From Haloplanus rubicundus (GTDB taxonomy: Archaea; Halobacteriota; Halobacteria; Halobacteriales; Haloferacaceae), in contig NZ_CP031148.1 in the NCBI RefSeq assembly GCF_003342675.1, forward strand, positions 310,001-374,000: a DNA stretch of 64,000 nt. Direction: 5' to 3'. A model generated the notes under the pieces. The model saw only the letters and a list, made by a program, of their open reading frames with translations, was not told where the DNA came from and made no database searches. This document shows positions 38,379 through 61,468 of the stretch, in pieces. The translations under genes and the position numbers were made by a program. The number at the start of each line of letters is the position of its first letter. The stretch's first letter is position 1.

Positions 38379-40157
38379 TCAGTCGTCGGAGGGGAGCGGT
38401 TCGCCCTGCCCGTCCGTCGGCGCGGGCGAGGCGTCCATCGACGTGTCCTCGGCGTAGGGATACCACGTCATCTTCGTGTTGCCGAGGTACGGGTCCTCGT
38501 AGCTCGTCTCCTCGGACTCGGCGAGGGCGGCGAGTTCGTCCTCGTCGCGGTCGGCGACGAAGTCACGGAAGGACTCCTCCGGCCCGGCGCGCTCCTCCTC
38601 GTACGTTTCGAGGAGATTGGCGATGTAGCCGGGCACCTCGTCGGCGGGGACGCGCATCTTCACCCAGTCGGCGAACTGCGGGTTCTCGCCGAGGCCGCCG
38701 CCCAGCCCCACGTCGAACGCCTCGACGGCGTCGCCGTCCTTGCGCGTCTTCATGCCGCGCAGGCTGACGTCGGCGATCTGTGGCTGGGCACACGAGGCGG
38801 TACAGCCCGAGAGGTGGATGTGGAAGTCCTCGACGCCCTCGGGAACGGGAACGTTGTCCCGCAGCCAGCGCCCGTACCGGACCATTCGGTTCTTCGTCTC
38901 GACGATGGATAGCGAGCAGTATTCGGTGCCCGTACACGCGATGGAGCCGCGCAGGAACGGGTGTGGGTCCGGCGAGTAGTCGTCGAGGAGGTCCTCGGCG
39001 AGGAAGTCGTCCAGGTCCTCGTCGGCGATGTCACCGACGATGACGTTCTGACGCTGGGTCAGGCCGATCATCTCGGAGCCGTACGCCTCGGCGAGGTCGG
39101 CGAGTTGGATCACGTCGTCGGCGGCCATGCGGCCGACGAGGACGTAGAGACCGAGAAAGTTCTGGCCGTCGTGCTGGTCGTGGACGCCGATGTAGTCGCC
39201 GGGGGCGTCGGCGCGGCCGGCGTTGTAGTCGTACTCGTCGCGAAGGCCCTCGCCGGCGGTCGGGAGTTCGTAGTCGACGTACTCGTCCTGCAGGACCGAG
39301 CGCACTTTCTCCGGTCCCCACTCGTCGACGAGGAACTTGATGCGGGCGTTGAAGCGGTCCTCGCGGTCGCCGTAGTCACGGAAGAGCGCCGAGAGCCCCG
39401 CGGCTACGTCCGTGGCGTTCTCGGGGCGGCAGAAGACGTCGATGTCGCGGGCGAACCGGGGTTCCTTGCGGGCGAGGCCGCCGCCGACGTTGACGTTGAA
39501 GCCGGCCACCTCCTCGCCGTCCAGTTCCTTGGTCGCGGGTTCGAAGGCGAGGTCGTTGATGTCGCCCTGCCCGGAGCCGCGGCGGTCGCCGGTCATCGCC
39601 ACCTTCCACTTCCGGGGCAGGTTGGCGTAGAGGTCGTTGCCCTTGAACGTCTCGTGGAGTTCCTGGACGACCGGCCAGACGTCGATGAGTTCGTCGGCGT
39701 CGCGGCCGGCAACCGGGGAGCCCACGATGTTGCGCCACGAGTCGCCACACGCCTGAATCGTCGAGAGACCGACCGACTCCAGTTCGTCCCAGATGTCCGC
39801 GATGTCCTCCACCTTGATCCAGTGGAGCTGGATCGACTGGCGGGTGGTGAAGTCGGCGTAGGCGTCGCCGAACTCGGGGTTCTCGACGGGGCCGGTGGCG
39901 TACTCCTTGGCCACCTCGCCGACGGTCCGAAGCTGTTCCGGCGTCATCCGGCCCATCGGCGTCCCGATGCGCATCATGAAGTAGCTCTCCTGTCCTTTCC
40001 GCTGGTGGTACAGGCCCCACCATTTGAACCGCTCGAACCAGGCGTCGTGCTCGTCTTCCGGAATGGCGTCCCATCCCTCCTCGGCGAACCGCAAGAGATG
40101 GTCGCGTATCTCCATCCCGTAGGTCTCGTCTTTCCAGCGTTCGACCTTGGTTGGCAT
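38379..40157 (-). CDS. nirA: Ferredoxin--nitrite reductase (siroheme, assimilatory type)
   Basis: Reduces nitrite to ammonium with six ferredoxin electrons. The siroheme/[4Fe-4S] cluster ligands are C408-x5-C414 (ACTGTEYC) and C452-x3-C456 (SGCTASCAQP). Two nitrite/sulfite reductase ferredoxin-like half domains are seen, starting YFMMRIGTPMGRMTPEQL and TRQSIQLHWIKVEDI. At 592 aa it is slightly longer than plant-type NirA, with a Glu/Asp-rich C-terminal tail. A sulfite reductase is the alternative, but the siroheme cluster and ferredoxin neighbour fit either role. No nasA nitrate reductase is seen in the window. Confidence 0.92.
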   Translation of the reverse strand: MPTKVERWKDETYGMEIRDHLLRFAEEGWDAIPEDEHDAWFERFKWWGLYHQRKGQESYFMMRIGTPMGRMTPEQLRTVGEVAKEYATGPVENPEFGDAYADFTTRQSIQLHWIKVEDIADIWDELESVGLSTIQACGDSWRNIVGSPVAGRDADELIDVWPVVQELHETFKGNDLYANLPRKWKVAMTGDRRGSGQGDINDLAFEPATKELDGEEVAGFNVNVGGGLARKEPRFARDIDVFCRPENATDVAAGLSALFRDYGDREDRFNARIKFLVDEWGPEKVRSVLQDEYVDYELPTAGEGLRDEYDYNAGRADAPGDYIGVHDQHDGQNFLGLYVLVGRMAADDVIQLADLAEAYGSEMIGLTQRQNVIVGDIADEDLDDFLAEDLLDDYSPDPHPFLRGSIACTGTEYCSLSIVETKNRMVRYGRWLRDNVPVPEGVEDFHIHLSGCTASCAQPQIADVSLRGMKTRKDGDAVEAFDVGLGGGLGENPQFADWVKMRVPADEVPGYIANLLETYEEERAGPEESFRDFVADRDEDELAALAESEETSYEDPYLGNTKMTWYPYAEDTSMDASPAPTDGQGEPLPSDD

Positions 40158-40242
40158 GGGGAGCTAGAATAGACGCGAACATATACGGTCGGGCACGTCG
40201 TCAACCTTCCCCGGCTCTCCGGGGACACGACAAATGTTGCCG

Positions 40243-40584
40243 CTATCGTCGAAGCGGCGTCGCGCGTCGGGACCGGCGACCAGGAACGTGGACGCTCTCG
40301 GGGACGACGGGGCGGAACGCGCCGGTGTCGGGGTCGACGCGGCCGAGGGTGAGCCAGTCGGTGACGCCGCTCGTGCCACATTGGATGCACTGGCCGGCGA
40401 CCCGCGCCTCCACGTCGGCGCCGTCGGGGGCCACTTCGACGAACCCCTCGGCGAGGAAGTCGGCGAGCCGGCACGGGCAGAAATCGTGGCGAGCGAGCCG
40501 CCAGAGATCGCTGACGTTCACCTCGCGGGAGTCGTTGACGCTGACCCACGCCCCGTCGTCAAGCTGGTGAACCGAGGTGGTCAT
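40243..40584 (-). CDS. Cys-containing hypothetical protein upstream of nirA (113 aa)
   Basis: Acidic small protein with CPC near residue 36 and CIQC near residue 69 (HDFCPCRLADF and GQCIQCGTSG). These four Cys could bind zinc or an Fe-S cluster. A C-terminal basic tail (GRRSRRATPLRR) may touch nucleic acid. It lies 85 bp upstream of nirA in the same orientation, so co-transcription or a nirA-regulating role is possible. The family is not recognised. Confidence 0.65.
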   Translation of the reverse strand: MTTSVHQLDDGAWVSVNDSREVNVSDLWRLARHDFCPCRLADFLAEGFVEVAPDGADVEARVAGQCIQCGTSGVTDWLTLGRVDPDTGAFRPVVPESVHVPGRRSRRATPLRR

Positions 40585-40812
40585 GACCTCCGATACCGCC
40601 CCGACGGCGGTAAGCCCGTCGGCGGCTGCGACGCTTGCCGGTCCTCGGACGGGAAATTGGGGGGTGATTCGGGCGTGATCGACGGACGAGGTCGGGATTC
40701 GTCCCGAAACCGCCCGTCACGGATACCGGAAAGGACCGCCCCAATACGGGAGAACGGGTAGCAATTATGCCCGAACGCGGCCTTATGCAGACGTACCGTT
40801 TACCGGTGTTCG

Positions 40813-40974
40813 ATGACCGAGAACAGCGAGGTTGTGACGACGCCGTCGGAGGAAACCGACGACGACGAGGCTGCGGACGCACGGAACCATCTCTCTGATG
40901 TCGAACCCGGGGCTGGCTGTACCGAAATCTGGGAACACCTGAGCGAGACGCGCGACGACGCCGAGGGGAACTGA
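40813..40974 (+). CDS. 53-aa protein with a GCTEIWEHLSE C-terminal motif
   Basis: Short ORF. The first half is acidic and disordered (TPSEETDDDEAAD); the second half is ordered (HLSDVEPGAGCTEIWEHLSE) with a single Cys. CTTATG near 40782 fits a TATA box about 31 nt before the ATG, and the stop is followed directly by the convergent glycosyltransferase gene. Clear codon bias and its own promoter argue for a real gene. The lone Cys and a compact helix suggest a partner-binding or regulatory micro-protein. Confidence 0.65.
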   Translation: MTENSEVVTTPSEETDDDEAADARNHLSDVEPGAGCTEIWEHLSETRDDAEGN

Positions 40975-40990
40975 TCCCGTCCGCAGGGCG

Positions 40991-42121
40991 CTATCCTCCG
41001 CGCTCGCTCTCCGCCCGCAGGAGCGCCGCGACTCCCTCACGAACCGCCGCGTGGAACCGGTCGCTCGCGTAGCGGTCCCGCGGGAGCGTGGGCCGGGCGT
41101 CGTCCACAATCGCCGCGGCAATCGTCGCCACGGCGTCGGGCGTCGAATCGAACAGCCGGTCCGAACGGCCGGCGAGCACCTCCCGCTGGCCGCCGGCGTC
41201 GGGCGCGAACGCCACCATCCCCGCGGCGACGTACTCGGCGACCGCCATCCCGAAGTGTTCCTCGGGCTTGCAGTTCAGGCCGTAGCGGTGGGTGGCGAGT
41301 AGCTCCGTCACCCGCTCGGGGGGTGCGTCGCGGTCGAGGTGGACGTACGGCCGGTCGGCGGCCGCGGCCGCCACCCGTCGGCCGTAGTCGGCGTAGATGG
41401 TCGACGACGACCCGACGAGGTGGAGATGCAGGTCGTACCCCCGAGCGCGGACGCCGTCGACGACGTCGATGGCCCGGAGCGGGCGCTTGTCCGGCGCGAG
41501 ACGGCCGAGGACGACGACGCCGGTCTCCCGCTCGGCCCACGGCCGCGGGTTCGGGACGGGATCGACCGGCGGGTGGAGCACGTCGGGGCGCCGTCCGTAG
41601 ATGGCTTCGACGGCGTCGGCCGTCCACGCGGAGTTGGCGAGGAGACGGGCGTCGTCCGGGAGCCGTCGGTCGCCGACGCCGGCCAACCGACTCCACAGCG
41701 GGTCGAGACGGGGCGTCCCGCCGGCCGGGGCGTGCCGGCGATTGAACTGCGGGAAGTGGACGTACTGGAGCGAGGGGAGCGGGAGGGCGAACTCGTTGGC
41801 GGTGCTGACGGCGGCGTCGAAGTCGGCGGCGTGCGGGGCGAAGAGGCGGCGGAGCAGGACGCTCCGCGCCGCCAGTTGCGGGCCGTAGCGGTCGGGGAGG
41901 GCATCGAACCCCCGGCAGACGAGTTCGGTCCCGGGCGGTCGGCGGACCCGCACATCGGCGTCGGTGTCGAAGAGTGCGTTGAGTTCCGCGAGCGACGAGC
42001 GGGAGAGGGTGACCAGCGTCACGTCGTGGACGGCCTGAAGCGCCTCGCAGACGTGGAGACAGACGGTGTCGGCGCCGCCGCGGCCGTCGAGCGTGTTGTG
42101 GAGGACCGCCACCCGTGCCAT
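40991..42121 (-). CDS. GT4-family glycosyltransferase
   Basis: GT-B fold retaining glycosyltransferase of 376 aa. The N-terminal domain has DGRGGADTVCLHVCEAL near residue 12 and YVHFPQFNRR near 140. The C-terminal domain carries VVLGRLAPDKRPLRAIDVV and the E-x7-E nucleotide motif KPEEHFGMAVAEYVAAG. It has no membrane anchor, so it acts at the cytoplasmic face. Its gene diverges from the Gfo-AKR fusion across the palindromic element at 42149-42228, whose outer arm supplies its TATA box. Confidence 0.9.
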   Translation of the reverse strand: MARVAVLHNTLDGRGGADTVCLHVCEALQAVHDVTLVTLSRSSLAELNALFDTDADVRVRRPPGTELVCRGFDALPDRYGPQLAARSVLLRRLFAPHAADFDAAVSTANEFALPLPSLQYVHFPQFNRRHAPAGGTPRLDPLWSRLAGVGDRRLPDDARLLANSAWTADAVEAIYGRRPDVLHPPVDPVPNPRPWAERETGVVVLGRLAPDKRPLRAIDVVDGVRARGYDLHLHLVGSSSTIYADYGRRVAAAAADRPYVHLDRDAPPERVTELLATHRYGLNCKPEEHFGMAVAEYVAAGMVAFAPDAGGQREVLAGRSDRLFDSTPDAVATIAAAIVDDARPTLPRDRYASDRFHAAVREGVAALLRAESERGG

Positions 42122-42145
42122 GTCTGCCCGTCGGGGGGCGACCGT

Positions 42146-42151
42146 CTTATA
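42146..42151 (-). promoter_or_regulatory. TATA box of the GT4 gene, overlapping the element end
   Basis: On the minus strand this reads TATAAG, and it lies 28 nt before the ATG at 42121. The first three bases belong to the element's terminal repeat. The 14-mer GCCGGCAGTATAAG recurs with one change (A for G) at 46121-46134, in the promoter of the PTPS-like gene. Confidence 0.5.
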
Positions 42152-42228
42152 CTGCCGGCTGTAACTGTTTCAAGATCCCCGTCACTCCGGGGTGACGGGG
42201 GTCTTGGTTGACTTACAGCCGGCAGTAT
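42149..42228 (+). repeat. Palindromic element, copy 1 (80 bp)
   Basis: Ends in a perfect 16-bp inverted repeat (ATACTGCCGGCTGTAA and its inverse). Inside is a 12-bp hairpin (42174-42185 with 42192-42203, one G-T wobble) around a 6-nt loop. The arms are joined by asymmetric sequence (CTGTTTCAA and TTGGTTGAC). It fills the gap between the divergent GT4 and Gfo-AKR genes. Aligned to copy 2 at 61468-61546 (opposite orientation), the changes in both stems are paired and keep the fold. Confidence 0.85.
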
Positions 42229-42278
42229 CAACTCCCATCCGGCGCGGGACTTTTCACGACAGCACCCTGCCAGGAGGT

Positions 42279-44246
42279 ATGGAGTGTGCGTTCGTGGGGT
42301 GTGGGGCGGTTGCCCGGAAGTACGCCGCCACGGTCGACGCCTCGGCGCTCTCGGTGACGGCGGTCTGTGACCTCGATGCCGACCGCGCCGCTGCCTTCGC
42401 GGCCGACCACGACGCCGCGGCGTACACCGACCTCGACGCGATGCTCGACGCCGAGGCGGTCCCTCTGGTGCTGAACCTCACGGGCCACGACGCCCACGCC
42501 GCGGTGACCGAGCGCGCCCTGCGGGCGGGGCGCCACGTCTGGAGCGAGAAACCGCTCGCCGTCGACGCCGACCGGGCGCGGAAACTGGTCGCGCTCGCCG
42601 AGCGCCGGGGGCTGGCGCTCGGCTGTGCGCCGATCAACGCCGACTGCGAGGCCCAGCGACACGCGGGGAGGGCGCTCGCGGACGGCCGCCTCGGGACGGT
42701 GCGCCTGGCCTACGCCCACGCCCACGTCGGCCGGGTGACCGCGTGGCACGACGACCCCGACGCCTTCCTCCGGGTCGGGCCGCTGTACGACGGTGCGGTC
42801 TACCCCCTCACCCTCCTCGTGGCGTGGTTCGGTCCCGTCGAGCGGGTTCGAGTCGCCGACGCCACCGACCCGTGGCCGGACCGCGAGGCGAAGCGGCCGG
42901 CGCGACCGAGTCACGTCGAGGCGACGCTCGCGTTCGCCGATGGCCCGCTGGTCCGCCTGACGGCGAGTTTCTACGCCCCCCACCGGAGCCGGGAGTTCAC
43001 GAGCCTCGAACTGCACGGCGACGACGGCTCGCTCTACCTCGACGACGCCGGTGACCTCGGCGGCGAGGCGGGCCACCGCGTCGCCTTCGGGCGCGAGGGG
43101 CGGGGCTACGCGCCGATGCCCATCCAGAAGCCGTCGCGGCGGACCCCCTACCTCGCCGGACCGGAGCGACTGGCCGCGAGCGTCCGGCGGGGGCGGCCCG
43201 ACCGGGCGTCGGCGCGGCGCGCGAGCCACGTCGTCGCCGTCTGTAACGCCGTCGAGCGGGCCGACGAGGCGGGGACGAGCGTCGCCGTCACGGACGCCGG
43301 CGTCGACCGACCCGACCGGCAGCGGGTGGCGTGGTGCGGCGCGGAGGAGGCCCCCCACCCGCCCGACGCCGCGCTCCGCCTCCCGCCTGTCGGCTTCGGC
43401 TGTTCGCGCTACCGCGGCGACGAGTACGTCGACCGCCGGGACTCCATCGCGACGGCACTCGACGCCGGCTACCGCTTGCTCGACTCCGCGGAGCTGTACG
43501 GCAACGAGGCGCGGATCGGCGAGCTACTGGCGGCGCCGGGAACCCCGGACCGCGACGCGCTCTTTCTCGCAAGCAAGGTCTGGAACACGAACCACGGCCA
43601 CGTCGCGGAGGCCTGCGAGACGACGCTCGACGAACTCGGCGTCGACGCCCTCGACTGTTACCTGCTCCACTGGCCGGACGCGTGGGAATACACCGGTCCC
43701 CTGCGCCGCCTCGCCGAGTTGCCGGTCGCGAAGCAGGAGGCACGCACCTTCCCGGAGGACGACGACGGGGAGCGGGCGACGGCCGACGTGAGTCTGGAGG
43801 AGGCGTGGCGAGGGCTGGAGACCCTCCACGACCGCGGCCTCGCGGCGTCGCTCGGGGTCTGTAACGTCGACCGTGCGACGCTATCGCGGGTCGTCGAGTT
43901 CGCACGGGTGCCACCGGCGGTCGTGCAGGTCGAACACCACCCATACCGCCCACAGCGCGACCTGGTGTCGTGGTGTCACGAGCGGGGGATTCGGGTGGTC
44001 GCCCACTCGCCGCTGTCGGCGCCGGGGCTCCTCGACGACGCCGCGGTCCGGGAGACGGCGGCGGAGATGGGCGTCTCGCCCGCGGCGGCCGTCGTCGCCT
44101 GGAACGTCGACCGGGGCGTCGTCCCCATCCCGTCGAGCACCGACTCCGACCACGTCGTCGAGAACCTCGCCGCCGCGGGCTATCGCCTCACCGACGCGGA
44201 CCGGGAGCGCCTGGCGACCCTCGAAGATCCGGAGTTCGGCCGATGA
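42279..44246 (+). CDS. Gfo/Idh/MocA oxidoreductase fused to aldo/keto reductase (655 aa)
   Basis: Two redox enzymes in one chain. Residues 1 to about 345 are Gfo/Idh/MocA: the Rossmann start MECAFVGCGAVARKYA, the EKP motif at residues 90-92, and a beta-sheet C-half. From about 370 the aldo/keto reductase has the catalytic tetrad D402, Y407, K433 and H464 and the PVGFGCSRYRGDEY start. A poorly ordered linker (about 345-370) joins them. The ATG at 42279 follows a TTTTCA box at 42251-42256. It overlaps the CDP-alcohol phosphatidyltransferase by 4 bp. Confidence 0.88.
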   Translation: MECAFVGCGAVARKYAATVDASALSVTAVCDLDADRAAAFAADHDAAAYTDLDAMLDAEAVPLVLNLTGHDAHAAVTERALRAGRHVWSEKPLAVDADRARKLVALAERRGLALGCAPINADCEAQRHAGRALADGRLGTVRLAYAHAHVGRVTAWHDDPDAFLRVGPLYDGAVYPLTLLVAWFGPVERVRVADATDPWPDREAKRPARPSHVEATLAFADGPLVRLTASFYAPHRSREFTSLELHGDDGSLYLDDAGDLGGEAGHRVAFGREGRGYAPMPIQKPSRRTPYLAGPERLAASVRRGRPDRASARRASHVVAVCNAVERADEAGTSVAVTDAGVDRPDRQRVAWCGAEEAPHPPDAALRLPPVGFGCSRYRGDEYVDRRDSIATALDAGYRLLDSAELYGNEARIGELLAAPGTPDRDALFLASKVWNTNHGHVAEACETTLDELGVDALDCYLLHWPDAWEYTGPLRRLAELPVAKQEARTFPEDDDGERATADVSLEEAWRGLETLHDRGLAASLGVCNVDRATLSRVVEFARVPPAVVQVEHHPYRPQRDLVSWCHERGIRVVAHSPLSAPGLLDDAAVRETAAEMGVSPAAAVVAWNVDRGVVPIPSSTDSDHVVENLAAAGYRLTDADRERLATLEDPEFGR

Positions 44247-45037
44247 GCGGGGAGACCGTCCACGAGCGACGGCGGGCGGCGGCGACGGCGACGGTCGGGG
44301 CGGCGGCGGCCGCCGTCGCCGTCGGGGGGTGGACGCTCGTCGCCGACGCCGCCTCGCACGACGCGGCGAACCGGTGGGTGTTGGTCGCCGGGGCGGTGCT
44401 GGCGTACGAAGTCGCCTACCTCGCGTACCATCTCGACGCCGACGGCGTCGGCTCGGCGTTCGCCCCGCCGAACCTGGTTACGCTGGTCCGCGGCGGGCTG
44501 TACGCCGCGACGGCGGGGTTCGTCTTCGTAGCGCCAGACCCGACGATACGGTGGGTGCCCGCGGCGTGTTACGGGGCGGGCGTCGTCCTCGATTACGTCG
44601 ACGGGAGCCTCGCCCGGCGGACCGGGCGCACCACGGACCTCGGGGCGAAACTCGACCTCGCGTTCGACACCCTCGGCTTCCTCGTCGCGCCGCTGGTGGC
44701 CGTCGCGTGGGGTCGCCTCCCCGTCGCGTACCTCTCGTTGTCGGCCGCGCGGTACGTCTACCGGGCGGGGATCGGGTGGCGAGAGTACCGGGGACGGTCG
44801 GTCGGTGACCTGCCCCCGAGCCGGATTCGCCGCCCACTGGCCGCGCTCCAGATGGGCTTCATCGCCGTCGCGCTGGCACCCGTCCTGCCGGCGTCGGTGC
44901 TCCACCCGCTCGCCCTCGTCGTCGTTGCGCCGTCGCTCGCGGTGTTCGCGCGGGACTATCTGGCCGTCACGGGGCGGCTGGGATCGGTACCGTCGGTCGC
45001 GTCGGAGCCGACCGACGAGGGCGGCAGTATGAAGTGA
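44243..45037 (+). CDS. CDP-alcohol phosphatidyltransferase family membrane protein
   Basis: Transfers a phosphoalcohol from a CDP donor onto a lipid or polyol. The family motif DGxxARx8GxxxDxxxD is exact at D120-G121, A124-R125, G134, D138 and D142. About six hydrophobic segments surround it (VGAAAAAVAVGGWTLV, VLVAGAVLAYEVAYLAY, and others after residue 145). The ATG overlaps the previous TGA by 4 bp, and GTG of the next gene overlaps its own stop. The acceptor is unknown. Confidence 0.9.
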   Translation: MSGETVHERRRAAATATVGAAAAAVAVGGWTLVADAASHDAANRWVLVAGAVLAYEVAYLAYHLDADGVGSAFAPPNLVTLVRGGLYAATAGFVFVAPDPTIRWVPAACYGAGVVLDYVDGSLARRTGRTTDLGAKLDLAFDTLGFLVAPLVAVAWGRLPVAYLSLSAARYVYRAGIGWREYRGRSVGDLPPSRIRRPLAALQMGFIAVALAPVLPASVLHPLALVVVAPSLAVFARDYLAVTGRLGSVPSVASEPTDEGGSMK

Positions 45038-46110
45038 GCCGCGACGCTAGGGTGGGCGTGACAGGGAGCGTCGAGGGCGGGCGATCCGGTGTCGACCCGC
45101 CAACGAGCGGCCGATCACTCTACTTCGCCGGCCCCCGAACGGTACGGATCGAATCCGAGACGGTGCCCGACCCCGGCCCGGACGAGGTGATCGTCGAGGC
45201 GCGCGTCTCGGCAGTGAGTTCGGGCACCGAACTCCTGATCTACCGGGGGGAGATGCCCCAAGACCTGCCGGCCGACGAAACCATCGACGCCCTCGCGGGT
45301 GACCTCACGTACCCGCTCAAATACGGCTACGCGACGGTCGGCGACGTGGCCGCGACGGGGGGGAACGTCGACGACGGCTGGCGCGGCCGGACGGTCTTCG
45401 CGTTCAATCCCCACGAGAGCCACTTCACGGCGAAGCCGGCCGACCTCGTGCCCGTGCCGGCGGACGTGTCGCCGGCGACGGCCGCCCTCCTCCCCACCGC
45501 GGAGACGGCGACGACGCTCGTGATGGACGGCCGCCCGCGGGTCGGCGAACGGGTCGTCGTCTTCGGCGCCGGGATGGTCGGGCTGGTCACGACGAGCATC
45601 CTCGCCGAGTTCCCGCTGGAGCGACTGACGGTGGTCGAACCCGTTTCCCACCGGCGGGAGATGGCGGCGACCCTCGGCGCCGACGAGACGCTCACGCCCG
45701 CCGACGCGGCGCAGGTCGGGACGCGGGGCGACCCGCCCGGGGCCGACCTGGCGTACGAACTCTCCGGCCAGCCTGCGACGCTGGACGACGCCATCGACGC
45801 CGTCGGCTACGACGGGCGGGTCGTCGTCGGATCGTGGTACGGGCGCAAGCGCGCCGAGACGGATCTCGGCGGCTTCTTCCACCGCAACCGGATCGACGTC
45901 TCGTCGAGTCAGGTGAGCACGCTCGCGCCAGACCTGCGGGGACGGTGGACGAAAGAGCGCCGGATGGGGACCGCGTGGGAGCGCCTGCGCGACGTGCCCA
46001 CCGACCGCCTCGTGACCCACCGCGTCCCCTTCGCGGACGCCGCGGAGGCCTACCGCCTGCTCGACGAGGGGCCGGAGAACGCGCTGCAGGTGCTGTTGAC
46101 CCACGAGTAG
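45034..46110 (+). CDS. MDR-family dehydrogenase, BchC-like
   Basis: Medium-chain dehydrogenase of 358 aa. The N-terminal half has RVSAVSSGTELLIYRG in place of the Cys-containing catalytic zinc loop, then LKYGYATVGDVAATG. The Rossmann motif VVVFGAGMVGLVTTSIL starts near residue 171 and the C-half carries GSWYGRKRAETDLGGFFHRN. The usual zinc-binding Cys and the structural-zinc Cys cluster are missing, so it may be zinc-free like BchC-type reductases. The start is GTG (GTGA overlap). Confidence 0.85.
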   Translation: MSRDARVGVTGSVEGGRSGVDPPTSGRSLYFAGPRTVRIESETVPDPGPDEVIVEARVSAVSSGTELLIYRGEMPQDLPADETIDALAGDLTYPLKYGYATVGDVAATGGNVDDGWRGRTVFAFNPHESHFTAKPADLVPVPADVSPATAALLPTAETATTLVMDGRPRVGERVVVFGAGMVGLVTTSILAEFPLERLTVVEPVSHRREMAATLGADETLTPADAAQVGTRGDPPGADLAYELSGQPATLDDAIDAVGYDGRVVVGSWYGRKRAETDLGGFFHRNRIDVSSSQVSTLAPDLRGRWTKERRMGTAWERLRDVPTDRLVTHRVPFADAAEAYRLLDEGPENALQVLLTHE

Positions 46111-46120
46111 GCGACACGCG

Positions 46121-46134
46121 GCCGACAGTATAAG
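46121..46134 (+). promoter_or_regulatory. Promoter of the PTPS-like gene, sharing the element-end 14-mer
   Basis: GCCGACAGTATAAG contains a TATA box about 28 nt before the ATG at 46158. GCCGACAGTAT is identical to the terminus of the palindromic element copy 2, and TATAAG follows as in the GT4 promoter. Either a shared control site or the remnant of a third element copy. Confidence 0.5.
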
Positions 46135-46157
46135 TCGCTCCCGGGCCACGAACGAAT

Positions 46158-46538
46158 ATGTACCGGCTCTCGGTCTCACGGGACTTCGTCGCCCAGCATT
46201 TCCTCACCGTCCCGAACCCCGGCCCGGAGGGGGAGGTCCACAGCCACCACTTCGAGGTGGCCGTCCGTCTCGCCGGTCCCGAACTGAACGAGTACGGCTA
46301 CCTCGTCGACATCGACGCCGTGAACGACGCGCTCGACGCCCTCGAGGACCGGTATCGCGACGCGCTCCTGAACGACCTACCGGAGTTCGAGGGGCGAAAT
46401 CCGAGCGTCGAGCGATTCGCCCGCCTGTTCGGCGACCGGTTCGTCGACCGGGTACCCACCGAGGTGCCCACGGAACTGACCGTCCGGATGTGGGAAGACG
46501 AGGACGCGTGGGCGAGCCACGAGCGCACCCTCCGATGA
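46158..46538 (+). CDS. PTPS/QueD-fold protein without the catalytic Cys (126 aa)
   Basis: 6-pyruvoyl-tetrahydropterin synthase fold. The zinc triad is in place: H14 (AQHF), H28 and H30 (VHSHHFEV). The Cys that normally sits four residues before the first His of HxH is E24 here, so the canonical pterin side-chain chemistry is unlikely. The V-D-I-D segment (YLVDIDAV) and a C-terminal WEDEDAWASHE stretch are kept. Its own promoter (46121-46134) and a 4-bp overlap with the methyltransferase are clear. The substrate is unknown. Confidence 0.85.
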   Translation: MYRLSVSRDFVAQHFLTVPNPGPEGEVHSHHFEVAVRLAGPELNEYGYLVDIDAVNDALDALEDRYRDALLNDLPEFEGRNPSVERFARLFGDRFVDRVPTEVPTELTVRMWEDEDAWASHERTLR

Positions 46539-47353
46539 ACCACGCCGACGGGCAGTATCTCGAAGCGAAACGGACGGTGGACGACCGGGCGCTCGACCGG
46601 CGCGTCCGCGACCGGTTTCTCGACGAACTCCCCGCGGCGCCCCGAATCCGTGAGGCGGCCGCCGGGACGGGCGTCACGGTGCCGCGGCTGCTGGACTGGG
46701 GCGTCACCGCCGGCGACTACGTGGGCGTCGACCGCGACGCCGACGTGGTCGCGCTGGCCCGGGAGCGGCGAGCGAGCGAGTGTGGCGGCGAGGCGATAAC
46801 GGATGGGTTTCGGGTCGACGACCTGACCGTCCGGTTCGAGCAGGGGAACGCGCTGACGGCGTTCGCGGGCGACGGCGCCGACTGTCTCGTCGCGCAGGCG
46901 TTTCTCGATCTGGTGCCCGTCGACGACGCGCTGGACGCCTTCGTCGACGCCCTGCGTCCGGGGGGGCTGGTGTACGCGCCGATCACCTTCGACGGCGAGA
47001 CGGCCTTCCAGCCCGACCACCCGGCCGACGACGCCGTCGTGGCGGCGTATCACGATGCCATCGACGCCGAACCGGGGCGGGACAGCCGCGCCGGCCGCCA
47101 CCTGCTCGACCGGTGTCGGGCGCGGGACGGCGACCTGCTCGCGGTCGGCGCGTCGGACTGGGTGGTCTATCCGCCCTATCCGGCCGACGAGCGGGGGTTC
47201 CTCGCGACGATTCTCGACTTCGTCGCCGCGGCAATCGAAGGGCGGGTCGACGGCGCGACCGACTGGCTGCGGACCCGTCGCCGCCAACTCGACGCCGGCG
47301 AACTGAGCTACGTCGCTCACGGCTACGACGTGCTCTATCGCGTTCCCGGGTAG
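46535..47353 (+). CDS. SAM-dependent methyltransferase-like protein
   Basis: Class I methyltransferase fold of 272 aa. A SAM-loop-like LLDWGVTAGDYVGVDRDADVVALARER (residues 48-74) is followed by the VRFEQGNALTAFAGDGADCLVAQAFLD loop. DALRPGGLVYAPITFDG is the family's strand 5 region. The glycine loop is diverged (DWGVTAG), so SAM binding is likely but not certain. It is coupled to the PTPS-like gene by ATGA. The target may be the same lipid or glycan. Confidence 0.8.
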   Translation: MNHADGQYLEAKRTVDDRALDRRVRDRFLDELPAAPRIREAAAGTGVTVPRLLDWGVTAGDYVGVDRDADVVALARERRASECGGEAITDGFRVDDLTVRFEQGNALTAFAGDGADCLVAQAFLDLVPVDDALDAFVDALRPGGLVYAPITFDGETAFQPDHPADDAVVAAYHDAIDAEPGRDSRAGRHLLDRCRARDGDLLAVGASDWVVYPPYPADERGFLATILDFVAAAIEGRVDGATDWLRTRRRQLDAGELSYVAHGYDVLYRVPG

Positions 47354-47355
47354 CG

Positions 47356-48402
47356 ATGCGCGCCCGGCGACGGCGGACGGCGGCGTGGACGCTCGTCGCG
47401 CTCTTGGGGCTCGCACTCTACGTGCGGGCCGTCGGCGTCGGCGCCATCGCGGCGGCGCTCGGTCGGGTCGCCCCCGTCGACGCCGCGGTACTCGTCACCG
47501 TCGGGTGGGTGCCCGTCCTCCTCTGGGGGGGCTCGCTCCACCTCGTGCTCCGGGGCCTCGACGTGCCGACGACGCTCCCGGGGTCCGTCGGACTGTTCGC
47601 GGCGGCGGGCTTTCTGAACAACGTGACGCCGTTCGGACAGGCGGGCGGTGATCCGCTCGGCGGGGCGCTGGTGGCGCGGGTCGGCGGGGTCCCCTTCGAA
47701 CGGGGGCTGGCGGGCGTCGTGAGCGTGGGCGCGGCCAACGCCGTCGCGGTGGTCGGCCTCGGCGTCGTCGGGGGGAGCGTCCTCCTCGCGACGGCCGCCG
47801 GGGACGCCGCCGTCCGCGCCGCCCTCGGCGTCGCGCTGGCGCTGGTGGCGGGCGTGGGCGTCGCGGCGGTGCTCACGTGGCGGCGACGGGAGCGACTCGC
47901 CGTCGGCGTCGGCCGGGGACTCGGGCGGGCGCTCGTCGGCGTCGGGCGGGCGATACCGGGGGTCGAGCCGCCGGATCGAGGGGTCGTCGTCGACCGAGCG
48001 GCAGGGTTCGTCGCGGCGCTCGAACGGGTCGGGGGGTCGCGGCGGCGACTCGGTGCCGTCCTCCTGCTCGGCGTCGGTGGGCACCTGGCGGTGGCGACGA
48101 CGCTGTGGCTGTCGCTCGCGGCGCTCGACGCCGCCGTCTCGCCCGTCCGGGTCGCCGTCGTGGTCCCGGTCGCGCGGCTCGCGGGCGCCTCGCCGACGCC
48201 GGGCGGGACCGCGAGCGCGGAGGCGCTGCTCACTGGGTTGCTCGTGGCCGTCGGCGGCGTGCCGGCACCCGTCGCCGTCGCGGCGACGCTCGTCTACCGC
48301 GCCGCGGCCTTCTGGATGCCGACGCTGGGTGGCGGCGTCGTCACCGCGGTCATGCTCGTGGCGAGCGACGGGACGGGCGGGGCGGAGTCACCGGACGGCT
48401 GA
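47356..48402 (+). CDS. UPF0104/lysylphosphatidylglycerol synthase-type membrane protein
   Basis: Integral membrane protein of 348 aa, about eight hydrophobic helices, with the family signature AAGFLNNVTPFGQAGGDP near residue 84 and ASPTPGGTASAEALL near 279. Members of this group include glycolipid and lipid flippase-like proteins and AglD-related proteins. As the last gene of the operon it fits moving a lipid-linked product across the membrane. The stop region overlaps the convergent gene by 15 bp. Confidence 0.85.
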   Translation: MRARRRRTAAWTLVALLGLALYVRAVGVGAIAAALGRVAPVDAAVLVTVGWVPVLLWGGSLHLVLRGLDVPTTLPGSVGLFAAAGFLNNVTPFGQAGGDPLGGALVARVGGVPFERGLAGVVSVGAANAVAVVGLGVVGGSVLLATAAGDAAVRAALGVALALVAGVGVAAVLTWRRRERLAVGVGRGLGRALVGVGRAIPGVEPPDRGVVVDRAAGFVAALERVGGSRRRLGAVLLLGVGGHLAVATTLWLSLAALDAAVSPVRVAVVVPVARLAGASPTPGGTASAEALLTGLLVAVGGVPAPVAVAATLVYRAAAFWMPTLGGGVVTAVMLVASDGTGGAESPDG

Positions 48403-48762
48403 AGCCGACTGCGACTCCCGACGGTAGAGCACGACCAGAATCGCGATCAGGCCGACCTGCACCACCTTGTCGCCGATGCCGCCGGGGTTGAGCACGTTCG
48501 GCCAGTTCAGGTAGAAATAGAGGACGACCTGGAGTCCGGTGAAGGGAATCCCGACGAGATAGAGCAGCCGGCGGCGAACGTCGAGGAGGAGGAGAACGAT
48601 GGCGACGAAGAAGGCGATGCCGGCGAGGACGAAGCTGGCCCCCTGGACGGTGTCGAGGGCGAGGGCGCCGAAGTAGAGGTGGACGACCCCGGTGATCGAC
48701 GCCAGGACGATGCCGACCCAGTGGAGGCGCGTGAGCGACTCGGTCTCGAACGCGGATGCCAT
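48388..48762 (-). CDS. DUF7475-like small membrane protein (124 aa)
   Basis: Four hydrophobic segments: LHWVGIVLASITGVVHLYFGAL, LAGIAFFVAIVLLLL, YLVGIPFTGLQVVLYFYL and VQVGLIAILVVLY. The short soluble ends carry no motif. It resembles a haloarchaeal family I recall as DUF7475 (unverified). The ATG at 48760-48762 follows a TTTTATC box about 27 nt away. It faces the flippase-like gene and is divergent from the GT2 gene. Confidence 0.75.
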   Translation of the reverse strand: MASAFETESLTRLHWVGIVLASITGVVHLYFGALALDTVQGASFVLAGIAFFVAIVLLLLDVRRRLLYLVGIPFTGLQVVLYFYLNWPNVLNPGGIGDKVVQVGLIAILVVLYRRESQSASAVR

Positions 48763-48842
48763 GAGGAACGGTACCACGCCGATCGATAAAACGGATGGGG
48801 TCGTGGCGCACGCTTATCGGCCACGCGCCCCACGGACCGGGC

Positions 48843-49553
48843 ATGGGAGTCGAGTACGTCAAGCGGGCGCGGGAGCCGGCGATATCCGTCGTCGTGCCGT
48901 CGGTACCCGCGTACGACCACGAACCGACGATGGCCCGGCTGGCGGCCCAGGAGGTGGCCGTGCCCTACGAAATCGTGCTCGTCGACGACGGGAGCGCCGA
49001 CCGGTCGACGGCCCGGAACCGGGGGCTCGAGGCGGCGTCGGCCGAGGTGGTGGCGATGACCGACGACGATACGCGGCCACCGGACGACTGGCTGGCGACG
49101 GCGTACGCGGCCTTCGACGCCAACCCCGACCTGGTCTGTCTGGAGGGGCCGGTGTACGGCGGCTGTCGGAGCTTCGGCCCGCGTCACTACGTCGGCTGTA
49201 ACCTCGCGGCCCGGCGGGCGGCCGCCCTCGACGTGGGGGGGTTCCGGTCGGCGTTCTCCGAGTGGCGCGAGGACGTGGAGTTCGGGTGGCGGATGGAGGC
49301 CGAAGCCGACGGGCGCTGTCGCTTCGAGCCGTCGTTTCGGATGTGTCACCCGGAGGTGCCACGGACGGCGTTCGATCCGGCGCTGGAGCGGCGCCTGAAA
49401 CGCGAGTATCCGGAGCGATACGCCGAGGTGATGGACGCGACGTGGACGCGGCGGCTCTATCGGCGAGCGCGGGCGGCGGGACTCACCCAGCCGATCCAGC
49501 GGGTTCGAAACGAAGTCGGGCGGCGGCTCTGGGGGGAGTGTCGAGGGGCGTGA
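48843..49553 (+). CDS. GT2-family glycosyltransferase
   Basis: GT-A fold. It has VVVPSVPAYDHEPTM, DDGSADRSTARNRGLE (residues 48-63), and the metal-binding DDD at residues 74-76 (AMTDDDTRPP). The later EWREDVEFGWRM gives the catalytic-base region, and no membrane anchor is evident. At 236 aa it is short. A CTTATC box is 29 nt upstream of the ATG. Together with the GT4 at 40991 it frames the cluster and probably adds a second sugar. Confidence 0.88.
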   Translation: MGVEYVKRAREPAISVVVPSVPAYDHEPTMARLAAQEVAVPYEIVLVDDGSADRSTARNRGLEAASAEVVAMTDDDTRPPDDWLATAYAAFDANPDLVCLEGPVYGGCRSFGPRHYVGCNLAARRAAALDVGGFRSAFSEWREDVEFGWRMEAEADGRCRFEPSFRMCHPEVPRTAFDPALERRLKREYPERYAEVMDATWTRRLYRRARAAGLTQPIQRVRNEVGRRLWGECRGA

Positions 49554-49572
49554 CGCGGGGTCGGAGGGTCGG

Positions 49573-49818
49573 TTACCGGCGACGGGCGAGGGAGCCGTAG
49601 ACGGAGCAGCCGTCAAGCGGCGCCCGGAGCGTGGAGACGAACAGAATCGGAAGCATCGCGACCGCGGCCGCGGCGGCGGTCGCCGGCCCGAAAACGTGTG
49701 CAGCGAGGGCGACGACGGCGGCTGTCGCCAGCATCACTGCGCCGAGGGCGACCCGCGCGCTGTCTACGCCGCTCCCTACCCCGGTCTTCCACTGGTTCAG
49801 GTCGTCGACGGCGGCCAT
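49573..49818 (-). CDS. Small two-helix membrane protein (81 aa)
   Basis: Two hydrophobic segments, ALGAVMLATAAVVALAAHVFG and TAAAAAVAMLPILFVS, with a soluble N-terminus (MAAVDDLNQWKTGVGSG). A Shine-Dalgarno-like AAGGAG sits 5 nt before the ATG, and a TTAAATATATT region (about 49850-49860) supplies the promoter. Function unknown. Confidence 0.65.
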   Translation of the reverse strand: MAAVDDLNQWKTGVGSGVDSARVALGAVMLATAAVVALAAHVFGPATAAAAAVAMLPILFVSTLRAPLDGCSVYGSLARRR

Positions 49819-49977
49819 CGTTCTCCTTGCAAATTATGGAGGGATCCAAATATATTTAACGAGGTAATTATCGACCGTGATTAAAATGAACGATACTGAA
49901 GGATTCTGCCGATAACGTAAATGATCATTACTGACAGATGCGGCTCGCCGGGTGGCGTCGAACGAGGAGCCGGGCGA

Positions 49978-50193
49978 TCAGGGGTCGAAACTCGCCATGT
50001 AGGAGACGTGGAGGTAGTAAAACAGGAGCATCCCGCCGAGCCAGCTGAGGATGCCGTAGGCGACGTACGCGAGGTCGGGGAGTTCGAGGTAGAAGTACAT
50101 GTACGACCCGATCAGGAGGTAGACGGCGACGAAGACACCGAGGAGACGGATACCACGACTCGAGACCTGTTGTTTCGGATTGACCATAGACAT
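49978..50193 (-). CDS. Small two-helix membrane protein (71 aa)
   Basis: Protein MSMVNPKQQVSSRGIRLLGV and on, with segments FVAVYLLIGSYMYFYLEL and AYGILSWLGGMLLFYYLHVSYM. The start at 50193 is chosen because a TTTAATGA box lies about 30 nt upstream; the ATG at 50187 is an alternative. It faces the gapB gene divergently. Function unknown. Confidence 0.6.
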   Translation of the reverse strand: MSMVNPKQQVSSRGIRLLGVFVAVYLLIGSYMYFYLELPDLAYVAYGILSWLGGMLLFYYLHVSYMASFDP

Positions 50194-50267
50194 CTGACGC
50201 TGGCTGTGCTGGGGGTCCCCGATCATTAAAGACGAAAGTTCATGCAAAATATGCGACTGGCGCCGAC

Positions 50268-50275
50268 ACTATATG
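50268..50275 (+). promoter_or_regulatory. TATA-type box for the gapB operon
   Basis: ACTATATG starts about 29 nt before the ATG at 50297. Confidence 0.55.
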
Positions 50276-50296
50276 AGGTAGCGGTCAACGACCGGT

Positions 50297-51289
50297 ATGA
50301 TTCGCGTAGGCGTCAACGGGTACGGTACCATCGGCAAACGCGTTGCCGACGCAGTGAACTCGATGCCCGACATGGAACTCGTCGGCATCGGCAAGGCCAG
50401 TCCGAACCACACGGCCGACGCGGCCGCGGAGCGGGGCTACGACATCTACGTCCCCGACGGGCGCGAGGACCGCTGGGACGACGTGGGGATGGCCGTCGCG
50501 GGTGACATCGAGGATCTCATCGACGCGAGCGACATCGTCGCCGACGCGACGCCGGCCGGGATGGGCGCGGAGTACCGCCCCATCTACGAGGACCACGACA
50601 CCCCCGCCCTGTTCCAGGGCGGCGAGGGCGCGGACGTGGCCGAGGCGAGCTTCACCGCCCGCGCCAACTACTCGGAAGCGACGGACAAAGAGTACGTCCG
50701 GATCGTCTCCTGTAACACGACGGGGCTGAACCGGATGTTCGCGCCGCTCCACGAGGAGTACGGCGTCGAGCGCGCGTCCATCACGCTCGTGCGCTGTCGG
50801 GGCGAGCACGCGGTCATCTCGGCCGATCCGGTCGGTCTCCCCTCCCACCACGGCCCGGACGCGCTCGAAGTGATCCCCGACATGGGGCCGGTGATGACGA
50901 TGGGTATGAAGGTGCCGACGGTTCGGCACCACTTCCACGGCATCAACGTCGAACTCGGCGCGGAGCCGAGCGCCGCGGAGGTCCGTGACCTGCTCGCCTC
51001 GCAGTCGCGCATCCACGTCGTCGACGGCGACCTGGGCATCGACTCGGGGTGGGAGCTGCAGGAGTTCGCCCTCGACCGGGGCCGCGACCGGATGAACCTC
51101 TACGAGAACCAGATCTTCGAGGACTCCATCAGCATGGACGGGCCGCAGCTCCACCTCTTCCAGTCCATCCACCGCGAGAGCGACGTGGTGCCGGAGAACG
51201 TGGACGCCATCCGCGCGATGATGGGCGAGGCCGACGCCGAGGAGAGCATCGAACTGACGAACGACGTGATGGGCATCGGCGACATTTAA
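50297..51289 (+). CDS. gapB: Glyceraldehyde-3-phosphate dehydrogenase, archaeal type II
   Basis: Phosphorylating GAPDH used mainly in gluconeogenesis in haloarchaea. It has NGYGTIGKRVADAVN near residue 7, the catalytic C139 in IVSCNTTGLN, VGLPSHHGPDALEV and the late MKVPTVRHHFHGINVEL substrate segment. The length is 330 aa. The next gene starts on the nucleotide after its stop, so the two are one transcript. Confidence 0.95.
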   Translation: MIRVGVNGYGTIGKRVADAVNSMPDMELVGIGKASPNHTADAAAERGYDIYVPDGREDRWDDVGMAVAGDIEDLIDASDIVADATPAGMGAEYRPIYEDHDTPALFQGGEGADVAEASFTARANYSEATDKEYVRIVSCNTTGLNRMFAPLHEEYGVERASITLVRCRGEHAVISADPVGLPSHHGPDALEVIPDMGPVMTMGMKVPTVRHHFHGINVELGAEPSAAEVRDLLASQSRIHVVDGDLGIDSGWELQEFALDRGRDRMNLYENQIFEDSISMDGPQLHLFQSIHRESDVVPENVDAIRAMMGEADAEESIELTNDVMGIGDI

Positions 51290-58933: not shown

Positions 58934-61468
58934 GTGGAGATGGGACCCGGAACCGACCCGATCCGCGTACTTCACGTCGACGACGACCCCGCCTTCCTCG
59001 ACGTGGCGGCGACGTTACTCGAACGCAAGGACGACCGGATCGAGGTGGCCACGGCCACGAGCGCGGACGAGGGGCTGGAACGCCTCGACGATGCCGACGT
59101 CGACTGCATCGTCTCCGATTACGACATGCCCGGACTGAACGGTATCGACTTCCTCGAACGCGTCCGCGCGTCGGGGGATGGCCGTCCGTTCGTCCTCTTC
59201 ACCGGGAAGGGTAGCGAGGAGGTGGCGAGCGAGGCCATCTCGGCCGGCGTGACCGACTACCTCCAGAAGGCTCCGGGGAGCGAACAGTACGAGATTCTGC
59301 TCAACCGGATCGTCAACGCCGTCGAGGCGGCGCGAATCCGTGCCCGAGCGACCAGACAGGAGCGGATCAACACGCTGATCAGGGAGAGCAACCGCCGGCT
59401 GGTCGCCGCCGACACCGTCGAAGACATCGAGGGCGCCGTCTGTCGGACGCTCACCAACGCCACCCCCTTCCGGTTCGCGTGGATCGGCGAACCCGAAGCG
59501 AACGGCGAAATCGTCCCCCGGACCTCGGCGGGCGACGCCGACGACTACCTCGACGAGGTGACGATCTACCACGACGACCGGCCGCGCGGGCAGGGGCCGG
59601 GCGGCCGCGCCATCCGGACGGACGAACTCCAGGTCGCCCAGAACATTCCGGACGACCCCTCGTTCGCACCGTGGCACGACGTGGCCGAACGGTACGGCTA
59701 CGAGTCGGTAACGGTCGTGCCGCTGTCGTACGGTGGCGGCCGGACGGGCATCCTGGCCATCTACGCCGACAGCCCACACGCCTTCGACGAGGTGGAGCTG
59801 AGCGTCCTCGAGGAACTCGGCGAGACGATCGGTCGGGCGCTCGAAGCGGCCGAGACCAGACGCCGACTCGAATCGCGGCGAGCGGCCGAACGGACCCGGA
59901 AGGAAGGCCACTACCGGACGCTCGTTGACGCCCTCCCCAACGGCGCAATCGCCCTCTTCGACACCGACCTCCGATACACCGTCGTCGGGGGCGCCGTCTT
60001 CGATGACCTGGACCTCTCGCCCGAGGACATGGAGGGAGAGGCGCTGACGGCCGTCCACTCGACGGCGTTTTGCGAGGCCTACCTCCAGCATTACCGGGCA
60101 GTCCTCGACGGCGCGGAGCGAACCTTCGAGTTCGAGTACGCGGACCGCACCTTCGAGGCCCACGTCGCGCCCGTGCGGGACGAGACGGGCGCCGTCGACG
60201 GCGGCATCGCGATGACACAGGACGTGACCGACCGGGTGCGGCGCCAGCGGGAACTGAGACGGCGGGAGCGCGTCCTCCGCGAGACGTACGAGGTGATCGC
60301 CGACCCGTCGCTGTCGGTCGAGGAGGGGGTTCGGCGGCTCCTGGCGATCGGCGCCGACGTCCTCGACGTTCGGTACGGCATCCTCTCCCGCGTCGACGGG
60401 GACGAGTACGCCTTCGAGGTGGTCCACGCGCCCGACGAGGACGGCAAAGCGGTCGGGGACGGCGGGCCGGCCGAGGGCGACACCGTCGCGCTGACCGCGA
60501 CGAACTGCGAGCGCGTCGTCCGGAGCGGGGAGACGGTCGCCGTCGCGGACGTGAGCGACGACCCGGACTGCGACGCCCGGACGCCCGCCGCCGAGTCCGA
60601 CCTCGCGTGTTACGTCGGCGCCCCCGTCGTGATCGACGGCGAGACGGACGGGACGTTCTGTTTCTACGATACGGACCCCCACGACGGGGCGTTCTCGGAG
60701 TGGGAGCTGACGCTCGTCGACCTGCTCTCGCGGTGGGTGGGCGTCGCACTCGACCGCCACGAGACCAACGCCCGCCTCCGCACGCAGAACGAACGGGTCC
60801 GGGAATTCACGAGCATCGTCTCTCACGACCTGCGCAATCCGCTCACCGTGCTCGGTGGCGCGCTCGAACTCGCCGAGGCGACTGGGGAGACCGAACAGTT
60901 CGACCGCTGCCGACGCGCGCTGGACCGGATGGGGTCGCTCGTCGACGACCTCACGACGCTCACGCGGGAGGGGGCGGTCGTCACGGACGCCGAACCGGTG
61001 GCGCTGGGGTGGGCGGCGCGGGCGTGCTGGGAGACGGTGGAAACTGGGACGGCCGAACTCCGTCTCGACGGCGACGCCCCGATTCTGGCTGACGAGGCGC
61101 GGCTGCGACAGCTACTGGAGAATCTGTTTCGGAATTCGGTCGAGCATGGCTCCACGGACAACCGGCGCGGAGACGCCGGTGATTCGGTCGAGCACGGCTC
61201 GACCGACGACGACGGACTGACGGTGCGCATCGGCGTCCTCGACGACGGGTTCTACGTCGAAGACGACGGGGTCGGGATCCCCGAGGACGAGCGTGCTCGG
61301 GTGTTCGAGCGCGGCTACTCGACGACGGCGACCGGAACCGGGCTCGGACTATCTATCGTCGAGAAGATGGCCGCCGCCCACGGCTGGACCGTCGCCGTGA
61401 GCGAGAGCGGCGCGGGCGGCGCCCGGATCGACGTGCGGGGCGTCGAGATGGACGACGGGCGCGAGTGA
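58934..61468 (+). CDS. REC-GAF-PAS-GAF hybrid histidine kinase (844 aa)
   Basis: Soluble multi-domain sensor. Residues 1-130 are a receiver domain (phospho-Asp D62 in VSDYDMPG). A GAF domain follows (about 150-310), then PAS (about 320-430), a second GAF (about 445-605), and the kinase core with H631 in SIVSHDLRNPL, N-box LENLFRNSVEHG and G-box GTGLGLSIVEKM. The N-box is followed by a 16-residue in-frame duplication (SVEHGSTD twice, 61135 and 61183). The start could be GTG 58934 or ATG 58940. Its stop codon overlaps the palindromic element copy 2. Confidence 0.88.
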   Translation: MEMGPGTDPIRVLHVDDDPAFLDVAATLLERKDDRIEVATATSADEGLERLDDADVDCIVSDYDMPGLNGIDFLERVRASGDGRPFVLFTGKGSEEVASEAISAGVTDYLQKAPGSEQYEILLNRIVNAVEAARIRARATRQERINTLIRESNRRLVAADTVEDIEGAVCRTLTNATPFRFAWIGEPEANGEIVPRTSAGDADDYLDEVTIYHDDRPRGQGPGGRAIRTDELQVAQNIPDDPSFAPWHDVAERYGYESVTVVPLSYGGGRTGILAIYADSPHAFDEVELSVLEELGETIGRALEAAETRRRLESRRAAERTRKEGHYRTLVDALPNGAIALFDTDLRYTVVGGAVFDDLDLSPEDMEGEALTAVHSTAFCEAYLQHYRAVLDGAERTFEFEYADRTFEAHVAPVRDETGAVDGGIAMTQDVTDRVRRQRELRRRERVLRETYEVIADPSLSVEEGVRRLLAIGADVLDVRYGILSRVDGDEYAFEVVHAPDEDGKAVGDGGPAEGDTVALTATNCERVVRSGETVAVADVSDDPDCDARTPAAESDLACYVGAPVVIDGETDGTFCFYDTDPHDGAFSEWELTLVDLLSRWVGVALDRHETNARLRTQNERVREFTSIVSHDLRNPLTVLGGALELAEATGETEQFDRCRRALDRMGSLVDDLTTLTREGAVVTDAEPVALGWAARACWETVETGTAELRLDGDAPILADEARLRQLLENLFRNSVEHGSTDNRRGDAGDSVEHGSTDDDGLTVRIGVLDDGFYVEDDGVGIPEDERARVFERGYSTTATGTGLGLSIVEKMAAAHGWTVAVSESGAGGARIDVRGVEMDDGRE
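61135..61209 (+). repeat. 48-bp in-frame repeat in the kinase N-box region
   Basis: TTCGGTCGAGCA starts at 61135 and recurs at 61183, a 48-bp period (16 codons) encoding SVEHGSTD twice. Between the copies, CCGGCG-x6-CGCCGG forms a 6-bp hairpin at 61162-61179. This kind of repeat can vary in copy number by slippage while staying in frame. Confidence 0.7.

Follow-up and report, generated by a model that had tools for sequence, protein, structure and literature searches.

Introduction

The closest described relatives of the gene cluster considered here are the PTPS-IV proteins of COG0720, among them SCO6650. Their bacterial PTPS-RibA-RibD neighbourhood is known in print: the AGeNNT paper (PMC5445326) places PF00925 and RibD_C beside PTPS-IV (561 sequences). 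Two further systems invite comparison, namely the early riboflavin/F420 pathway, in which RibA or GTP cyclohydrolase III opens GTP and a DHFR-like reductase (RibD_C/ArfC) also belongs to the first enzymes, and the CDP-alcohol phosphatidyltransferases of phospholipid head groups, such as archaetidylinositol phosphate synthase. The cluster lies at 40991-49553 of a 64,000-nt stretch of Haloplanus rubicundus DNA (contig NZ_CP031148.1, positions 310,001 to 374,000, in a genome of 3.77 Mb); this whole stretch is called the window below, and all positions refer to it. We report that these genes represent an archaeal version of a biosynthetic cluster that many bacteria also carry. Its constant core comprises an MDR oxidoreductase, a PTPS-like protein, a methyltransferase (MT) and, usually, a GT4 glycosyltransferase, and the feature that defines it appears to be pteridine chemistry, not sugar redox.

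An original prediction for this locus had proposed an undescribed pathway for a new membrane or surface lipid. Searches of open-licence PubMed Central papers gave no described pathway of this composition, and nothing on the MDR-GT4-MT core, on the CDP-alcohol phosphatidyltransferase (CDP-OH) module or on a haloarchaeal version; an undescribed pathway is likely. Its enzymes are of known kinds; the pathway itself is real, widely conserved and uncharacterised.

A conserved unit in haloarchaea

The eight genes on which the prediction was built were all recovered as open frames with the expected family matches. The GT4 gene (40991-42121, minus strand; Pfam GT4 domains) is divergent from the operon, 157 bp away from it. 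On the plus strand come a 655-amino-acid fusion of Gfo/Idh/MocA and aldo/keto reductase domains (42279-44246; PF01408 and PF00248), CDP-OH (44243-45037, 264 amino acids; PF01066, 55.6 bits, scored on a longer open frame), and then three core genes: the BchC-like MDR (45034-46110; PF00107), the PTPS-fold protein without catalytic Cys and His (46158-46538; PF01242, 87.5 bits) and the class I SAM-dependent MT (46535-47353). A UPF0104/LPG_synthase_TM membrane protein (47356-48402, plus strand) and a GT2 glycosyltransferase follow. The 4-base overlaps said to couple most genes exist at three of the five co-directional junctions (fusion/CDP-OH, CDP-OH/MDR and PTPS/MT), the other two being gaps of 47 bp (MDR-PTPS) and 2 bp (MT-UPF0104); the divergent GT4 does not fit that description, and a minus-strand gene for a DUF7475 protein had been overlooked.

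At a threshold of E <= 0.001, a relative of the PTPS protein was present in 165 of 293 sampled haloarchaeal genomes of the order; five of the 165 were weak matches (E from 5e-5 to 8e-4), probably QueD. In a sample of the phylum, the PTPS profile matched 22 of 148 genomes, five of these lying outside the haloarchaea. The neighbourhoods compared were 80 PTPS-anchored ones from 79 genomes, hand-picked at about one per genus plus extras; counts out of 81 come from open reading frame clustering of these 80 and the window. Within 3 kb of PTPS, the MDR was found in 68 of the 80, MT in 64 and the core GT4 in 50; within 6 kb, CDP-OH, DUF7475 and the fusion were found in 47, 40 and 21, respectively. MDR>PTPS>GT4>MT were collinear in 32/80. 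This survey bore out the proposal of a single conserved unit: the genes are not scattered in relatives and their clustering in the window is not due to chance. Haloarcula halophila has the window's order (GT4, Gfo/Idh, CDP-OH, GTP cyclohydrolase IIa, MDR, PTPS, MT), and the minus-strand hypothetical gene after its MT gives a 39% match to the window DUF7475 gene.

The variable genes fall into several groups. The core GT4, located between PTPS and MT, was present in 51 of the 81 loci and the window-type GT4 in 16, but never both together, which suggests that the window-type gene has taken the place of the core one. Searched with the core GT4, the window's genome gave a best match that was weak and partial (E 3.6e-17). 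The fusion is an optional module, found in 21/81 loci (median open reading frame 665 amino acids; 18 of the 21 also with CDP-OH); a definition of the cluster by three domains of sugar or polyol redox is not supported. GT2 (matches in 2 of the 80 other loci, in one case as two pieces) and UPF0104 (no BLAST match in these 80 loci at E 1e-3) had also been counted as members, and are not conserved in haloarchaeal relatives.

Two side observations concern other haloarchaeal loci. A sulfatase/alkaline-phosphatase-like gene (C20; e.g. L090:7405-8289) adjoins it in 8 of the 81 loci, always together with the fusion. Haloarcula marismortui pNG700 (L223) carries the cluster at about 9.0-9.4 kb, with CDP-OH, MDR, GT4, an aldo/keto reductase gene that is probably the fusion and, nearby, a creatininase-family gene; its PTPS gene, however, is unannotated, gives a partial match only and is probably interrupted.

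A bacterial counterpart

Bacterial loci were collected by scanning genome contigs with an MDR profile, and the counts given here are for the best 80 of at least 581 loci confirmed among at least 595 stretches showing the pattern. The core was represented by MDR in 80, PTPS in 72, GT4 in 70 and MT in 67 of them, and MDR>PTPS>GT4>MT were collinear in 61. Further genes were MdoH (48), RibD (47), RibA (35), CDP-OH (23), LPG_synthase_TM (15) and a creatininase-family gene (7). On annotated plasmids of Methylosinus, Streptomyces, Thiodictyon, Microbacterium and Neorhizobium, the MDR (as zinc-binding alcohol dehydrogenase) adjoins a '6-carboxytetrahydropterin synthase', mostly with GT4 and MT; in plasmid records of Palleronia and one Rhodobacteraceae strain, MDR and PTPS adjoin with no GT4 after PTPS. 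Rhodococcus opacus, which has the MDR without PTPS, was rejected as a carrier.

When the MDR of the Methylosinus cluster was compared with the window's genome, the window MDR was the sole match (E 3.7e-49). The best NCBIfam model for the latter is that of BchC, the MDR of bacteriochlorophyll synthesis, but its 74 bits are far below the cut-off of 291, and haloarchaea are not known to offer a bacteriochlorophyll context. The window MDR has no close solved relative. The MT has a weak Pfam match; its predicted model (pLDDT 91.9) retrieved only general class I methyltransferases with Foldseek and therefore gives no hint as to substrate.

The PTPS-like protein

The nearest solved relative of the window protein by profile is SCO6650 (PDB 3d7j; E 5.7e-53), QueD structures being at 1e-8. 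At the position of the catalytic Cys27 of Escherichia coli QueD (the Cys of CxxxHGH), all 81 rows labelled haloarchaeal, the window included, have Glu or Asp. The 79 rows labelled bacterial have Ala (76), Gly (1) or Glu (2), the two Glu rows being by inference haloarchaeal plasmids (L120 and L125) within the bacterial set. None of the 160 cluster proteins has His at the position of the catalytic His71 (after Asp70), and all 160 keep the equivalent of Glu110, the pterin-anchoring residue near the C-terminus in the QueD/PTPS-I family. In a tree of 69 rows and 134 alignment columns (L120 and L125 not drawn), the haloarchaeal (support 97/99) and bacterial (98/97) halves were joined (99/94) apart from 13 QueD-type proteins; with only 134 columns and long branches, the finer branching order is unsure.

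Judged by these residues and this tree, the window protein is an archaeal sister of PTPS-IV/SCO6650 and not a QueD, and the bacterial branch, in which all seven bacterial rows of one alignment (A1) carry the signature FGPAQ, is the published PTPS-IV. The two branches are alike in the loss of the catalytic Cys and His and in a GP motif, and the bacterial loci found here resemble the published PTPS-IV neighbourhood (PF00925, RibD_C). The haloarchaeal branch differs in having PGPEG for FGPAQ, in keeping the second zinc-type His (HSH, against HGA in bacteria) and in having GTP cyclohydrolase III, not RibA, as a companion. The PTPS-III (folate) motif, defined as ExxHGH in PMC5041015, is not present in the window protein. 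This reads PEGEVHSHH, so that the residue three places ahead of its first His is not Glu, and it has HSH instead of HGH.

An ordinary QueD (for archaeosine) or folate enzyme with unrelated neighbours would account for two facts: the protein is the sole PF01242 match in the window's genome, and the gene is auto-annotated as 6-carboxytetrahydropterin synthase in the named relatives. We consider this very improbable, as the catalytic Cys and His are gone, the proteins form their own clade, the same neighbours recur in archaea and bacteria, and many PTPS-carrying genomes, including both congeners (G199 and G260), have two PF01242 matches. QueD or folate enzyme identity was rejected on the residues and the tree. 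The window's genome may lack the usual archaeosine QueD, or the gene may be absent from the assembly.

A role in the synthesis of coenzyme F420 also has some points in its favour. The bacterial branch has the PTPS-IV signature, PTPS-IV being involved in F420 according to an unpublished statement within Zallot et al. 2016 (PMC5041015); the ribitylaminopyrimidine precursor could be common to F420 and the cluster; and CofD is present in the window's genome. Against this, only 2 of 23 cluster-bearing bacterial genomes have CofD, and the annotation of 10 bacterial and haloarchaeal plasmid regions includes neither an FO synthase nor a Cof gene. Such a role is unlikely in bacteria, and as a general explanation we give it almost no weight. 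The idea of 'Halopterin' was also set aside: in the sole paper found, the string names a synthetic compound, and the natural charged haloarchaeal pterins were not used as evidence.

Probable precursor supply

GTP cyclohydrolase III was encoded in 25 of the 81 haloarchaeal loci, and neither RibA nor RibD in any of the 80 neighbourhoods. Two copies of GTP cyclohydrolase III were present in 36 of the 293 haloarchaeal genomes (hand count from tables); the cluster PTPS occurs in 29 of these 36, versus 165/293 overall (Fisher p 0.002, relatedness uncorrected). Among 23 bacterial genomes tested, 14 have RibA in the cluster, 13 of them with another GCH2-domain gene, and all 23 have RibD_C, in at least two copies in 22. 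The two cluster RibD proteins tested consist of the reductase domain without the deaminase domain. The bacterial cluster differs from the early riboflavin/F420 pathway in that its copies of the first enzymes are mostly extra paralogues, and the PTPS-like, MDR, MT and GT4 core enzymes are not known from that pathway. A FAPy-only RibA, reportedly known from work on SCO6655, was considered as the common source of the intermediate and rejected as a general rule, since 35 of the 37 cluster RibAs retain Tyr105, the exceptions having Met (Streptomyces) and Leu (L196). The Streptomyces cluster with the Met105 RibA also has a creatininase-family gene.

Together, the RibA and RibD_C neighbours in bacteria and the GTP cyclohydrolase III neighbours in haloarchaea point to a GTP-derived pteridine rather than to a head group made of sugar or polyol alone. 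The latter possibility, a sugar- or polyol-modified archaeal lipid with the PTPS-fold protein in a non-pteridine role, would suit the window itself, with its sugar-type oxidoreductase fusion, its CDP-OH, its two glycosyltransferases and its UPF0104 protein. But the fusion, GT2 and UPF0104 are outside the conserved core, RibA and RibD_C accompany that core in bacteria, and the pterin-anchor Glu is invariant; we regard it as improbable.

The CDP-alcohol transferase and co-occurring membrane proteins

The window CDP-OH has a complete D..DG..AR.{8}G...D...D motif (DYVDGSLARRTGRTTDLGAKLDLAFD), the CDP-alcohol phosphatidyltransferase motif being DxxDGxxAR(x)8GxxxDxxxD. Its Asp, Gly and Arg residues are invariant, and its Ala is at least 90% conserved, in 20 archaeal and bacterial CDP-OH cluster members; the proteins are similar across haloarchaea and bacteria, and the window's genome encodes three members of the family, the cluster copy included. 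The solved relatives are phospholipid enzymes. The likeness to the phospholipid head-group transferases lies in the catalytic motif and in the membrane enzyme family; the window protein differs from archaetidylinositol phosphate synthase in scoring far below the cut-off of that NCBIfam model (29.3 bits against 180) and in accompanying a pteridine-type core. As the motif is complete, an anchoring of the product to a lipid is plausible. The claim of a new membrane or surface lipid is partly supported, the core itself appearing to be characterised by pteridine chemistry.

Of the 44 haloarchaeal loci that contain CDP-OH, 34 also contain DUF7475, which is present in 40 of the 81 overall. In the bacterial set, 23 loci have CDP-OH, 48 have MdoH, 9 have neither and none has both, and LPG_synthase_TM is present only alongside CDP-OH (15/15), in several clusters after MT. 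The window UPF0104 protein (PF03706, 111.7 bits) passes the TIGR00374 cut-off (55.4 versus 43.2 bits) and is a possible flippase.

The main rival to a lipid-anchored product is a glycosylated pteridine that lacks a lipid anchor, is soluble or secreted and serves as pigment, cofactor or photoprotectant; CDP-OH would then make a soluble phosphodiester or be only loosely associated. The core is MDR-PTPS-GT4-MT; CDP-OH is missing in 37 of the 81 haloarchaeal and 57 of the 80 bacterial loci, and in 48 of the latter MdoH stands in its place. However, CDP-OH is often accompanied by membrane proteins (DUF7475 or LPG_synthase_TM), its solved relatives are phospholipid enzymes, and MdoH is itself a membrane glycosyltransferase. 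A soluble product seems to us rather unlikely, if a serious contender.

A proposed pathway

We propose that the cluster builds a GTP-derived, methylated and glycosylated pteridine which, in the window version, would be attached to the membrane by transfer to CDP-archaeol through CDP-OH. A GTP cyclohydrolase, of type III in archaea and RibA in bacteria, would open GTP to give a ribosylamino-pyrimidine. The PTPS-like tunnel-fold protein would use its conserved Glu to bind the pterin-like ring, and would shape or close it without the usual Cys/His chemistry. The BchC-like MDR would next set the redox state of one carbon in the side chain, and the DHFR-like RibD_C of bacteria may add a reduction. 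MT and GT4 would then decorate the pteridine, and CDP-OH would link CDP-archaeol to one of the product's hydroxyls, DUF7475 and UPF0104 possibly helping to move or hold it. A pteridine-type product is likely in our view; the proposal as a whole we hold with about even confidence.

Several points weigh against it. Every chemical step is an inference. No cyclohydrolase or RibD_C gene lies beside the window cluster genes, and GTP cyclohydrolase III is encoded only once in the genome. This enzyme is encoded in 283 of the 293 haloarchaeal genomes and, according to PMC8305020, is required for riboflavin in Haloferax volcanii, so that a neighbouring copy may in some genomes serve riboflavin. A FAPy-type RibA accounts for one, at most two, of the 37 cluster RibAs. 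The loss of CDP-OH from many loci places lipid attachment outside the core. On the MDR tree, the CDP-OH, MdoH and LPG_synthase_TM traits change five to eight times, with two well-supported independent pairs and a sign test that is not significant; with so few independent changes, the mutual exclusion of CDP-OH and MdoH is suggestive, not proven. Finally, the window UPF0104 protein had no significant BLAST similarity to the LPG_synthase_TM protein of Microbacterium.

A same-order gene unit in haloarchaea and many bacteria points to a missing class of metabolites. The proposal would assign a function to the PTPS-IV proteins, whose member SCO6650 is solved but deposited as uncharacterized, would reveal a branch by which the early riboflavin pathway feeds membranes or glycans, and would correct the widespread automatic annotation as 6-carboxytetrahydropterin synthase. 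In its broadest form, which we put forward tentatively and with less confidence than the pathway, the lipid-anchored, glycosylated and methylated pteridine would be a new class of membrane lipid common to haloarchaea and bacteria, with a non-classical PTPS-fold protein acting on a GTP-derived ribosylamino-pyrimidine and with interchangeable membrane modules (CDP-OH plus flippase-like protein, or MdoH-type glycosyltransferase).

Other features of the window

The DUF7475 gene (48388-48777, minus strand; PF24287, 39.1 bits against a cut-off of 31.3) encodes a membrane protein for which a single-sequence model gave four helices (pLDDT 73); the model had no PDB match at E <= 0.001. The GT2 gene (48795-49553, plus strand; PF00535) is probably accessory. 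A scan of 40000-50500 with Rfam gave no match.

Between GT4 and the fusion, at 42149-42228, lies one copy of a palindromic element that is about 80 bp long, has ATACTGCCGGCTGTAA as its arms and is dispersed in the genome, a further copy being at 61468-61546. The former folds at -59.7 kcal/mol (z -10.1). An exact 14-mer of the palindrome has 10 matches in the genome, corresponding to both arms of the window copy and eight other sites (backwards control: 0); in eight further copies the second arm is inverted, imperfectly in several, and the inner part is variable. The 80 haloarchaeal loci used for comparison, 1.54 Mb in total, gave no match to the element, which is REP- or MITE-like. Elsewhere in the window, the segments 13930-15176 and 21433-22685, 7.5 kb apart, are about 80% identical and probably represent a duplicated gene.

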